Of a stretch of 41,674 bases of DNA, positions 29,863 through 33,800 are shown piece after piece (positions within the stretch are counted from its first letter, which is position 1; the number at the start of each line of letters is the position of its first letter). The translations under genes and the position numbers were made by a program. The notes under the pieces are model-generated. The model saw nothing but the letters and a program-made list of their open reading frames with translations, did no database searches and was not told where the DNA came from. Source of the DNA: Thermoplasmata archaeon (GTDB taxonomy: Archaea > Thermoplasmatota > Thermoplasmata > Lutacidiplasmatales > UBA184); contig JAKASE010000020.1 of assembly GCA_021819135.1 (NCBI GenBank), positions 1 through 41,674 on the forward strand, written 5' to 3'.

Positions 29863-30573
29863 TCAGGACCCCGCGGCCGCGGATTCCGGGGAACCGTACG
29901 ACGCGCGGATCCGCCGGAGCAGGTCGACCAGCATCGCGTGGGTCAACTTCCCGGTGTTCGTGTTCTGGGGGCTCGGATGGTAGGACGCCCAGAGGAGCGG
30001 CCGGCCTTCCCCCAGGGCGACGCAGGCTCCGTGGGCAAAGGGGGTCTTCGGGACCTCGCGAGCGTAGGCGCGCGCAGCCGCGCGGAGGACGGCGTCCCAG
30101 GCGAAGCCCCCCAGCGCGAGGACCGCCCGAACGTTGGCCAGGACCGCAAGTTCCCGCTCGAGGTAGGGTAGGCAGTTCGCCTGCTCCGCCGGCAGCGGTC
30201 GGTTGTCGGGCGGGGCGCACCGCACCGCGGCCGTCAGGAAGAGGTCGTCATAGCGGAGGCCGTCCCCCCGATGGAGGGAGGTCGGCTGGCTCGCGAAGCC
30301 GGCGGCATGGAACGCCCGAACGAGGAACGCCGCCGAGCGATCGCCCGTGAACATCCGGCCCGTACGGTTCGAGCCGTGGGCCGCGGGGGCGAGCCCCACG
30401 GCGACGAGGCGCGCATGCGGGTCGCCGAACCCCGGGACCCCCTGCCCCCAGTAGGTTTCGGCCCGGAACTCGCGCTTCTTCTCCCGCGCCACCCGCTCGC
30501 GGTAGCGGACCAGTCGGGGACAGCGCCGGCAGGCGATCACCTCCGAACGGACCCGGTCGAGCGTGTCGGGCAC
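29863..30573 (-). CDS. Family 5 uracil-DNA glycosylase (UDGb)
   Basis: Removes uracil and related deaminated bases from DNA. The 236-residue protein has the family-5 motif GLAPAAHGSNRTGRMFTGD (60-78), in which the usual catalytic acid of other UDGs is replaced by Ala, and HPSPQNTNTG (199-208). Cys15, Cys18, Cys119 and Cys134 are placed to hold a 4Fe-4S cluster. The GTG at 30573 is about 24 bases after a TATA-like element. It is the first gene of a two-gene transcript with archaeosine transglycosylase and is divergent from the bactofilin-like gene. Confidence 0.93.
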   Translation of the reverse strand: MPDTLDRVRSEVIACRRCPRLVRYRERVAREKKREFRAETYWGQGVPGFGDPHARLVAVGLAPAAHGSNRTGRMFTGDRSAAFLVRAFHAAGFASQPTSLHRGDGLRYDDLFLTAAVRCAPPDNRPLPAEQANCLPYLERELAVLANVRAVLALGGFAWDAVLRAAARAYAREVPKTPFAHGACVALGEGRPLLWASYHPSPQNTNTGKLTHAMLVDLLRRIRASYGSPESAAAGS

Positions 30574-30601: not shown

Positions 30602-30654
30602 AGGTTCCGGACCGAGGACCGCTATCGTGCGGTGCTCACCGCTCGTGACCTACC

Positions 30655-30663
30655 CCTATAGAA
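30655..30663 (+). promoter_or_regulatory. TATA box inside a short dyad, for the bactofilin-like gene
   Basis: CCTATAGAA is centred 27 bases before the ATG at 30686. CCCCT at 30653-30657 and AGGGG at 30663-30667 flank it as an inverted repeat, so a DNA-binding protein on the dyad would block TBP. Confidence 0.55.
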
Positions 30664-30685: not shown

Positions 30686-31903
30686 ATGACGACCACCGAG
30701 GTGCCGAAGGGTCGTACGGTCACGCTGGGCGACGTCCCGGGGGATCTGCGGGTCGGCAAGAACGCCCGCATCGAAGTGAGCGGACGGCTCACGGTGGCCG
30801 GCGTCGCCCGGTTCGACGGCAATGCCGAGGTCCGGGGGGACCTCACCTGCCGCGCCCTCGAGGCCGACGACGGCACCGTCCGCATCGCCGGCAGCGTCCA
30901 CGCCACCGAGTCCGTCCGGGCGCACGACGCCACGATCGAGGTCGAGGGCGGGTTCCGTTCCGTGCACGTGGACGTCGACCGCGGTCTCTCGATCCGGGGA
31001 CCGGCCGAGGCGGAGGAGTTCGAGGTCGGCGGATACCTCGACGGTCGTAGCACGCTCACCGCCGCGAAAGTGTCGGTCGGGGGCAAGTTCCGGCTCGCGG
31101 GCAAGCTCACGGCCCGCGCCGTCGACGCAGGCGGATCGGTCGACGTCGGCGAGGTCGAGGTGGATTCGCTCGACGCCGGTGGGCTGATCCGGCTCGGCGG
31201 GGGAACGGTGAAGAACGGGGTCAAGGTCGGCGGTCGGTTCGTCGCCCGCGGACCCCTCTCGTTCGGTTCCCTGGACGCCGGGGGGACGGCCGACCTCCAG
31301 GCCGGTGGGAAGGGAGGCTCGATCGATGTCGGGGGCGTCCTGTCGGTGGGAGGGGACCTCACGTTCTCGACCCTCGACGTCGGCGGGCTCGGTTCGATCC
31401 ACGGGGACGCGACGGGGGAGAGCTTCGACGTCGGGGGGAAGTTCGACGTCGGGGGCGCGCTCCGCGTGACCCGGTCGGTCGACGTGGGCGGGTTCATGTC
31501 GGTGGGCGGCGACCTCGCGGGGGAGTCGCTCGACGTCGGCGGCATGCTCTCGGCCCGGTCGGGGATCTTCACCGGTACGGCGCGCGTCGGGGGGCACATC
31601 CGGACCCACGCAGGGTTGAAGGCGAGCCGGCTCGTCCTACGGGCCAAGGCGCGGGCGAGCGGCCCCCTCATCGGGGGGACCGTCGAGCTCGAGCACCGGG
31701 CACGCGCCGAGGAGGTCTACGGGGAGTCCGTGGAGCTCGGCGACCGGGCGGAGGCGAACCGCGTCGTGGCCAAGCGGGTGCGAGTGGGCCGCGGCGCTTC
31801 GGTCAGCGAGGTGCTCTACTCGGAGTCGGCCGACGTCGACCCCGAAGCCCACCTCTCCGCACCGCCCCGCCGGGTCGATCCCCTGCCCCCCTTCCCGCTC
31901 TGA
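30686..31903 (+). CDS. Bactofilin-like beta-helix protein with 17-residue repeats
   Basis: A 405-residue protein dominated by short repeats of the form S-(L/F/V)-D-V-G-G. The DVGG-type turn recurs at residues 113, 130, 147, 163, 180, 197, 214, 231, 248, 266, 283 and 300, a period of 17 with single-residue slips. Such Gly-Gly turns with alternating Val/Leu strands predict a right-handed beta-helix as in bactofilins and related polymer-forming proteins. No signal peptide or membrane helix is seen; the C-terminus is Pro-rich. Bactofilin homologues (halofilins) affect cell shape in haloarchaea. A filament or scaffold role is inference. A winged-helix gene follows after 15 bases. Confidence 0.75.
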   Translation: MTTTEVPKGRTVTLGDVPGDLRVGKNARIEVSGRLTVAGVARFDGNAEVRGDLTCRALEADDGTVRIAGSVHATESVRAHDATIEVEGGFRSVHVDVDRGLSIRGPAEAEEFEVGGYLDGRSTLTAAKVSVGGKFRLAGKLTARAVDAGGSVDVGEVEVDSLDAGGLIRLGGGTVKNGVKVGGRFVARGPLSFGSLDAGGTADLQAGGKGGSIDVGGVLSVGGDLTFSTLDVGGLGSIHGDATGESFDVGGKFDVGGALRVTRSVDVGGFMSVGGDLAGESLDVGGMLSARSGIFTGTARVGGHIRTHAGLKASRLVLRAKARASGPLIGGTVELEHRARAEEVYGESVELGDRAEANRVVAKRVRVGRGASVSEVLYSESADVDPEAHLSAPPRRVDPLPPFPL

Positions 31904-31918
31904 ACCGGAGACGGCCGA

Positions 31919-32254
31919 ATGCCGAGCGGTCCGGACGGAGCCAACGGGACCTCCCGACGACGGGAGGTGAGCGACCTCTACGCGACGGTCCTCGAGGTGG
32001 TGAAGCACTACCACGGCGCCGCCCGCATCACCCGGGTCTCCTACGGCGCGGGCATGCCGGTCGACCGTCTGAGGAACTTCGTCGAGCGCCTGCTCGCCCT
32101 GGGACTGCTGAAGAGCGAGGAGCTCGACGGCCGGCCGGCTTACGACATCACGGCGCGGGGCCAGGAGTACCTCGACAGCTACTGGAAGCTCCGGGGGTAT
32201 CTCGAAGGGCTCGAACGGGGACCGTCCGATGAGCGGCCGAGCCGCCGGCGATAG
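31919..32254 (+). CDS. Small winged-helix DNA-binding protein
   Basis: A 111-residue protein. Residues of about 18-90 match the archaeal winged-helix pattern: a helix with LYATVLEVVKHY, a turn, the MPVDRLRNFVERLLALGLL recognition region, and a hairpin that ends in YDITARGQEYLDSY, as in HTH_45/ArnR-like regulators. Both ends are Arg-rich. It begins 15 bases after the bactofilin-like gene and shares its promoter, so it may regulate that operon or act as an adaptor. The target is unknown. Confidence 0.75.
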   Translation: MPSGPDGANGTSRRREVSDLYATVLEVVKHYHGAARITRVSYGAGMPVDRLRNFVERLLALGLLKSEELDGRPAYDITARGQEYLDSYWKLRGYLEGLERGPSDERPSRRR

Positions 32255-32851: not shown

Positions 32852-32944
32852 GCCGAGGTGAGCCGGTCCTCCCCGGGCCGGCATGGGCCCGCGCGCGGGC
32901 TATGCCGGGGCCCCTCATGCTAGGCCGGCACAGGCAGCCCACAG

Positions 32945-32954
32945 GGATTTGAAG
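32945..32954 (+). promoter_or_regulatory. Weak TATA-like element for the ABC exporter
   Basis: GATTTGAAGG-like sequence centred about 27 bases before the ATG at 32976. Spacing fits, sequence is poor. Confidence 0.3.
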
Positions 32955-32975
32955 GAGCCGCGGACTCCCCGCGCG

Positions 32976-33800
32976 ATGGATTCCGCGACCCTGCCGTCGG
33001 ACGTCACGCAGTGGTTCTCGGCGTTCCAGCGTCAGATCCGGTTCTACTTCCGCACGATGCGGTTCGTGGGATTGCTCGGCTTCGTGACGCTCGTTTCGGT
33101 GGCGGCGATGGCCGTCGCCATCGTCTACGGATCCAGCGCGACCTCGGCGTCCGACTACCTGTACGGGATCCTCGGCAACCTCCCTACGTTCGGGATCATC
33201 GTGGGGGCGTTCATCGGCGGCGATGCGATCGCGATGGACTCCGGGGGGACGGGCTACTTCACCCTCGTTCTCCCCGTACGGCGCCTCGTCCTCCTGCTCG
33301 GGCGGTACGCGGCCGCGTTCCTGGTCTCGTTCGTCCTGCTGCTCGTGTTCTACGCCTTCTCGATCTTCGGGGCGGCGTGGCTCTTCGGGGCCGGGTCGAT
33401 CCCCTGGACGGACGTCGGCGTGTCGGTCGGATTCGCCGCGCTCTTCGCCCTGGCGACGCTCGCGACCGCGTTCCTGTTCAGCGCCTTCTTCCGGAGCCCC
33501 GCGGTCAGCATGGTGGTCACGATCCTGGTCCTCTTCCTCGCCTTCCTGTTCATCGACGGCCTGCTCGTCCTCACGACCGTCGAACCGTGGTTCTCGCTCC
33601 TCTACGCCGGCGAGATCATGGCGCTCGTGTTCGAGGGCCAGCCGCACCTCACCTCCACCACGCTCAACGGGCCGCGGCACCTGACGATCACCACGTACCA
33701 TCCGTACCTCTGGGAGGGCGTCGTGATCCTGCTGGTGTACCTGGTCGTGTCGCTCGTCCTGAGCGCGGTGCTGTTCCAGTACCGGGAGTTGAAGGGGTGA
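32976..33800 (+). CDS. ABC-2 type transporter permease
   Basis: A 274-residue integral membrane protein with about six helices and little else, as usual for ABC-2 permeases. It starts with a short amphipathic segment (FQRQIRFYFRTMRF) before the first helix. The ATG at 32976 is preferred over 32883 because the extra residues look non-coding and a TATA-like element lies 27 bases upstream. The stop at 33800 is followed by the ATPase ATG at 33803, so the two make one exporter. The substrate is unknown; such pairs often export lipids, drugs or peptides. Confidence 0.85.
   Translation: MDSATLPSDVTQWFSAFQRQIRFYFRTMRFVGLLGFVTLVSVAAMAVAIVYGSSATSASDYLYGILGNLPTFGIIVGAFIGGDAIAMDSGGTGYFTLVLPVRRLVLLLGRYAAAFLVSFVLLLVFYAFSIFGAAWLFGAGSIPWTDVGVSVGFAALFALATLATAFLFSAFFRSPAVSMVVTILVLFLAFLFIDGLLVLTTVEPWFSLLYAGEIMALVFEGQPHLTSTTLNGPRHLTITTYHPYLWEGVVILLVYLVVSLVLSAVLFQYRELKG

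Follow-up and report, generated by a model that had tools for sequence, protein, structure and literature searches.

What does a beta-helix protein of the bactofilin type do beside a winged-helix protein in a thermoplasmatal archaeon, and what controls the pair? The question is raised by a locus in the window, by which we mean the whole 41,674-nucleotide stretch of DNA that was analysed, where the following features lie together (gene 1 and gene 2 denote the two coding sequences; labels beginning with L and G are our handles for loci and genomes).

30636..30648, strand not given: dyad TCACCGCTCGTGA, TCAC-N5-GTGA, proposed operator of the winged-helix protein
30656..30661, plus strand: TATA-like box CTATAG, about 27 nt 5′ of the ATG
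30686..31903, plus strand: gene 1, bactofilin-like beta-helix protein of 405 aa with 17-residue rungs (from the ORF, Pfam and AF2)
30686..31300, plus strand: N-terminal half of gene 1, ending near residue 205 (approximate boundary) and encoded as its own ORF in L280-L283
31301..31900, plus strand: C-terminal half of gene 1 (about residues 206-405), which matches stand-alone forms of about 200-250 aa and bears a KVxxLPPFPL-type tail
31919..32254, plus strand: gene 2, HTH_45/Sso10a-like winged-helix protein of 111 aa, whose residues 79-99 make up a long C-terminal helix

The gene 1 stop and the gene 2 start are 15 nt apart on one strand, and from this spacing we infer that the two genes are co-transcribed. 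Given the short distance from the TATA-like box to the ATG, the gene 1 mRNA is probably leaderless. A gene of the uracil-DNA glycosylase superfamily (Pfam UDG; 29863-30573 of the window, minus strand) diverges from the module, and a similar-reading gene occupies this position in 26 of the 48 clustered loci. An ABC-2 permease gene at 32883-33800 was considered as a further member of the module and set aside, since it comes after a rhodanese gene on the opposite strand. The named relatives are mostly Thermoplasmata MAGs, among them Candidatus Lutacidiplasma silvani, and on this basis we assign the window to the Lutacidiplasmatales.

Gene 1 is predicted to encode a long bactofilin-like beta-helix

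A preliminary description of this DNA had noted a DVGG-type turn recurring every 17 residues and predicted from it a beta-helix of the bactofilin kind. All twelve turns lie exactly at the residues it gave (113, 130, 147, 163, 180, 197, 214, 231, 248, 266, 283 and 300), and the pattern [DESAKR][VA]GG picks up three more that are off register (220, 254 and 272). The period holds as well, with a self-identity of 0.175 at lag 17 against a best value of 0.154 in 2000 shuffles (lags 5-59), and among 30 homologues both turn glycines are invariant or nearly so in 11 of the 12 turns. The AF2 monomer model, computed from a 30-sequence alignment, is one continuous all-beta chain with a mean pLDDT of 97.3 and a pTM of 0.87; pLDDT is at least 90 in 400 of the 405 residues and below 50 in none. 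AF2 readily yields confident solenoids from repetitive sequence; we regard the beta-helix fold as likely. The length of the protein is nearly constant across related loci, at 402-408 residues in 54 of 56 called starts, the outliers being L118 (411 residues) and L094 (419 residues, start doubtful). The KVxxLPPFPL-type C-terminal tail is shared by the Lutacidiplasmatales and remote long forms, though L024, L027 and L028, for example, depart from it.

The family proposed in the preliminary description gained support from the Pfam Bactofilin profile (PF04519), which the gene 1 protein matches narrowly above the cut-off (30.2 versus 27.9 bits). The same profile matches 26 of the 30 homologues at E ≤ 0.001, an E threshold rather than the curated cut-off. 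A six-frame family search of the window's own genome gave no Bactofilin match at E ≤ 0.001, and searches of PDB sequences with the gene 1 protein (phmmer and profile) retrieved no bactofilin. Foldseek returned 70 PDB matches at E ≤ 10, none of them at E ≤ 0.001, with no bactofilin among the best 50 of the 70, and 14 rows at E ≤ 0.001 against viral models, with a TM-score of at most 0.52.

Surface, fibre or unnamed proteins make up most of the weak PDB rows and of the 14 viral rows, and the pAdhesive_15 and FapA profiles match 10 and 7 of the 30 members, respectively (E ≤ 0.001), as would suit a surface or secreted solenoid such as an adhesin, an ice-binding protein or an S-layer-like protein. 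However, Bactofilin is the best profile, and on the Kyte-Doolittle scale the gene 1 protein has no hydrophobic stretch fit for a signal or transmembrane helix (19-residue maximum of 1.0). The absence of a hydrophobic segment led us to reject a secreted solenoid, and we hold a surface function of this kind to be extremely improbable. We class the gene 1 protein as bactofilin-like, in that it scores above the profile cut-off and departs from bactofilins in size and flanks; by design, it would work like a bactofilin.

Gene 1 looks like a fusion of two beta-helices

In four Thermoproteota genomes (L280-L283), gene 1 is represented by two adjacent ORFs with frames of 203-246 residues, followed by the winged-helix gene. 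The two halves align to model positions 3-205 and 203-404, and the second ORF has its own ATG one or two bases past the stop of the first. This split makes gene 1 of the window look like two fused beta-helices. Elsewhere there are stand-alone forms, about 200-250 residues long, whose match is confined to positions 176-404 or so. Such a fusion suggests end-to-end stacking and, since both halves break within the solenoid, they probably stack end on. The arrangement is our chief, though indirect, reason for considering end-to-end assembly of the gene 1 protein most likely; the protein may polymerise and serve a cytoskeletal role.

Gene 2 resembles Sso10a-type winged-helix proteins

The gene 2 protein scores above the cut-off of Pfam HTH_45 (PF14947; 29.9 versus 25.5 bits) and below that of NCBIfam Sso10a (NF053610; 29 versus 60 bits). 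The best match in a profile search of the PDB was Sso10a-2 (E 7.3e-8), followed by AspA (5k5o, E 0.0046). Computation gives a predicted fold for this partner as for the beta-helix: the AF2 model (mean pLDDT 83.3) has three helices and a wing of two strands and closes with a C-terminal helix of 21 residues, which suggests a dimer. The motif PVDR in the recognition region is common to gene 2 of the window and eleven distant short-form partners.

The two genes stay together through several gene orders

The preliminary description would have been abandoned had the predicted structure not been a beta-helix or had the winged-helix neighbour been missing from all relatives; the predicted structure is a beta-helix, and the neighbour is present in relatives. 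Within the genus set, both genes occur in the identical 31 of 37 genomes and both are absent from the same 6. A scan of named genomes for gene 2 gave 70 loci, 67 of which have gene 1 alongside according to its profile. Among the remaining three, L091 holds the C-terminal tail of the beta-helix before the contig end, L099 has no sequence upstream of gene 2, and L125 has no beta-helix in the 436 nt upstream of the winged helix.

In the class survey, the beta-helix was found at E ≤ 1e-20 in 85 of 400 genomes, with the winged helix downstream in 70 loci, divergent in 11 and lacking in 3, and with one locus cut by a contig end; leaving out the latter, the winged helix adjoins the beta-helix in 81 of 84 loci, in two gene orders. 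The 11 divergent partners belong to short forms and were found at a relaxed cut-off (E ≤ 1.6e-6). At E ≤ 1e-10 the survey counts 116 of 400 genomes, neighbours having been checked for the 85 loci at E ≤ 1e-20 and for L178 and L179 of the 31 weaker ones. For L160-L162, a search out to about 4 kb from the beta-helix found no member of this winged-helix family. As a crude control, L159, L178 and L179 (other bactofilin-like loci), together with L160-L162, show no such winged helix at E ≤ 0.01, one frame of L179 reaching E 0.043 against the family. The genus part of the class sample (70 genomes) lacks gene 1 in 13 genomes and gene 2 in 10; of the three discordant genomes, G304 and G370 carry gene 2 close to the start of a contig, and G243 has a fragment of 29 residues. 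Some genus genomes, for example G018 (94% complete), are without the whole module.

The pair extends beyond the class. In the class Nitrososphaeria, gene 1 was found in 12 of 250 genomes, 11 of them with gene 2 and the twelfth cut. In the phylum of the Marsarchaeota genome G409, it was found in 57 of 398 genomes; gene 2 lies downstream in 20 of the 55 fetched loci, upstream in 12 and divergently in 11; no gene 2 turned up within 1.2 kb of gene 1 in the last 12, a group with at least two loci cut by contig ends. The downstream set includes one weak partial match 919 nt off (L271), and the upstream partners are separated by 31-1069 nt between open frames, some thus being far. A third gene order is present in Thermoproteota. 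On a quick tree (101 rows, 84 labelled), gene order changes about 7 times, a figure to be read in the light of the difficulty of aligning repeats and of the weakness of 35 of the 97 inner branches. That the neighbourhood is kept despite rearrangement argues for a shared function of gene 1 and gene 2.

Three further observations concern individual records. L160:4381-5589, L161:4349-5557 and L162:4103-5311 encode 403-residue relatives with a similar tail (LPxFPF). One Nitrososphaerales genome has the beta-helix and its winged helix in two copies (L150, in the same genome as L131, G408; and L156). L071 and L130, records titled ‘bacterium’, bear the module and may be mislabelled archaeal bins.

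A conserved dyad stands at a fixed place before the TATA-like box

The preliminary description had placed a dyad over the TATA box and suggested that the operon regulates itself. The position did not hold: the conserved dyad, TCAC-N5-GTGA at 30636-30648, ends 7 nt before the CTATAG at 30656. What lies over the box in the window is a CCCC-N7-GGGG palindrome, which was rejected as a conserved element, being found in the last 60 nt of only 2 of 56 loci. By contrast with the expectation of 0.055 loci from shuffles, TCAC-N5-GTGA occurs within 150 nt upstream of gene 1 in 54 of the 56 related loci; when the spacing was varied from 0 to 15, N14 alone scored, in one locus. The two misses are L100, with one base changed, and L094, with foreign-looking sequence. 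In L094:1-233, other sequence stands directly before the beta-helix gene, which accounts for the missing promoter dyad; this sequence ends in a motif that we take to be the end of a transposase.

The dyad also keeps a fixed place. Where a TATA-like motif was found, it lies 7-8 nt past the dyad in 48 of 50 loci, and the distance from the dyad end to the ATG is 36-38 nt in 50 of 54. The dyad in its promoter context (≤1 mismatch) was found once in 49 of 78 genus genomes and never twice, with no site in the reversed control. As 12 of the 29 genus genomes without the promoter pattern have the beta-helix, the pattern misses variants. The site lies 28-36 nt before the first aligned gene 1 base, on the gene 1 strand, in 46 of the 49; of the other three, the G020 site fits by coordinates, that of G173 is on another contig, and G406 is outside the protein survey.

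In the window's genome the bare dyad occurs at 17 places (3 in the reversed control), and a form in which GACNTA replaces the terminal GA, one mismatch being allowed, at 9 (2 in the reversed control). Inspection by eye of 15 of the 17 surroundings revealed a TATA-like box at 7-8 nt solely at the module, L212 having TATATA at 12 nt; on this ground we rejected a wide regulon in this genome.

In other lineages the arrangement recurs in part. Nitrososphaeria sites lie, by eye, about 6-9 nt before TTTTAG- or TATATA-like boxes (L134, L192, L193, L196-L199, L201 and L202; in L192 and L196 the distance is counted from an imperfect second dyad). Two abutting dyads with a 13-bp pitch stand just before the TATA-like box in L135, L136, L192, L193, L194 and L196, the second carrying one or two mismatches except in L193 and L194. 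L137 is without any dyad, and L133 and L195 are without one at the promoter. Of the 11 divergent pairs of the class, 4 have an intergenic dyad (L163, L166, L167 and L171). In the G409 phylum, the dyad was found within 200 nt in 26 of 54 loci, other spacings giving 0-2 each and the expectation being 0.06; the remaining 28 have no perfect dyad within that distance.

With a conserved dyad at a fixed place before the TATA-like box of the promoter, the idea of self-regulation gains support. Since dyad and gene pair are co-conserved, the gene 2 protein presumably binds TCAC-N5-GTGA and, because the dyad is conserved upstream of the pair and recurs in other lineages, we read gene 2 as a candidate dedicated regulator. 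In archaeal promoters, a site just upstream of the TATA box suits a repressor that masks the TFB site and equally an upstream activator.

The same features could be read as a system for DNA anchoring or segregation, in which the winged helix is an adaptor tying the dyad to a beta-helix polymer. Small autoregulatory winged-helix adaptors occur in partition operons, and here a promoter-proximal dyad, a small winged helix and a possible filament come together; the gene 2 profile also reaches AspA, which we take to have a partition role on pNOB8, and bactofilins position ParABS in Myxococcus (PMC12284271). That match is weak, however, and stands alongside other winged helices (RosR, Sso10a); the sites comprise one 13-bp dyad or two abutting ones rather than a long iteron array, and their fixed spacing to the TATA-like box resembles promoter control. 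The pair itself includes no NTPase gene, and where neighbours are annotated, which is the case for some, the ATPases among them are those of ABC transporters only. On balance, we consider an anchoring or segregation role very improbable, and a dedicated regulator of a scaffold gene remains the reading that we prefer.

Exporter genes lie ahead of the module in some lineages

Exporter genes stand upstream of the module in several loci: ABC-2 genes directly upstream and co-directional in L133-L137 (assigned by Pfam for one gene or more in each locus), MFS genes in L193 (Pfam) and L194 (by resemblance), and ABC-3 in L196. In L135 and L136 the order is dyads, ABC-2 ATPase gene, permease gene and gene 1; in L193 and L194 the dyads precede a 49-codon ORF and then the MFS gene, and L193 has an additional dyad ahead of the beta-helix. 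The 49-codon ORF begins about 40 nt past the tandem dyads and is alike in L193 and L194. The exporter genes alongside suggest that the signal for the module concerns the envelope.

These loci could also point to an envelope-stress module, in which the beta-helix, instead of forming a cytoskeletal filament, would be a membrane-associated helper in efflux or in repair of the envelope, and the winged helix would sense stress or drugs and turn on the exporter and the beta-helix jointly; the exporter genes of all three types and the dyads ahead of them in L135, L136, L193 and L194 are what such a module would display. Yet the clustered Lutacidiplasmatales loci have no exporter cluster directly before the pair, the exporter type varies by lineage, the 49-codon ORF separates the dyads from the MFS gene, and no genome has more than one dyad in promoter context. 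We regard an envelope-stress module as possible, if unlikely.

A model for the module

With moderate confidence, we favour a two-gene archaeal module made up of a bactofilin-like scaffold and a dedicated winged-helix regulator acting via TCAC-N5-GTGA. Gene 1 would encode a rigid bactofilin-like beta-helix, folded throughout and about 23 rungs long; it is a putative fusion of two end-stacked beta-helices of about 200 residues, and its most likely mode of assembly is end to end, giving an intracellular scaffold. Gene 2 would encode a small, probably dimeric winged helix of the HTH_45/Sso10a type that binds the dyad immediately 5′ of the TATA box and governs how far the module is expressed, either sign being possible; in some Nitrososphaeria it would also control the exporter genes ahead of the module. 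We propose that the gene 1 protein may form an intracellular scaffold in these archaea because bactofilins polymerise via their helix ends and halofilins contribute to cell shape; more broadly, a scaffold or envelope role would fit. A bolder version, which we consider decidedly unlikely, supposes direct binding between winged helix and beta-helix: the promoter dyad would then register whether the scaffold is free or assembled, or would itself be tethered to the scaffold. If true, this would be a cytoskeletal polymer accompanied by a transcription factor that senses its assembly, an arrangement shared by two archaeal phyla.

The favoured model of a scaffold with a dedicated regulator offers direct tests, with one DNA sequence to probe and one protein to image; the natural half-length versions provide a handle on assembly, and the exporter genes may reveal the signal.

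Relation to known systems

Titles and opening lines of abstracts in a partial library yielded no bactofilin with a winged-helix partner, and a word search of the Lutacidiplasmatales paper (PMC9287336) does not find bactofilin. The published archaeal bactofilin relatives found in that partial library are the halofilins of haloarchaea. The locus adds a distinct form of double length, which has a candidate regulator gene next to it and a legible putative operator and is spread across Thermoplasmatota and Thermoproteota.

With partition adaptors of the AspA/TubR type, the module shares a small winged helix near a possible filament former and a promoter palindrome; unlike them, the pair encodes no NTPase and has no long iteron array, and the sequence match is weak. 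With Sso10a and HTH_45 proteins, the gene 2 product shares a winged helix and a long C-terminal helix, Sso10a-2 being its best PDB match. Sso10a, however, is spread over chromatin, whereas the gene 2 protein would be tied to its own promoter and scores below the Sso10a cut-off. Halofilins HalA and HalB of haloarchaea, archaeal homologues of bactofilins, contribute to Haloferax cell shape (PMC12186497). Bactofilins (PF04519, DUF583; for example BacA, CcmA and TtBac) share with it the beta-helix, here predicted, and the above-cut-off Pfam match. In them a core of some 100 residues is flanked at both the N- and the C-terminal side by disordered stretches, and they polymerise via their helix ends (PMC12364344). 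The gene 1 protein, in contrast, would form about 405 residues of continuous helix, about four times the core length, and is without such flanks in the AF2 model; and, unlike the bactofilins, it comes with a neighbouring transcription-factor-like gene and a conserved dyad.
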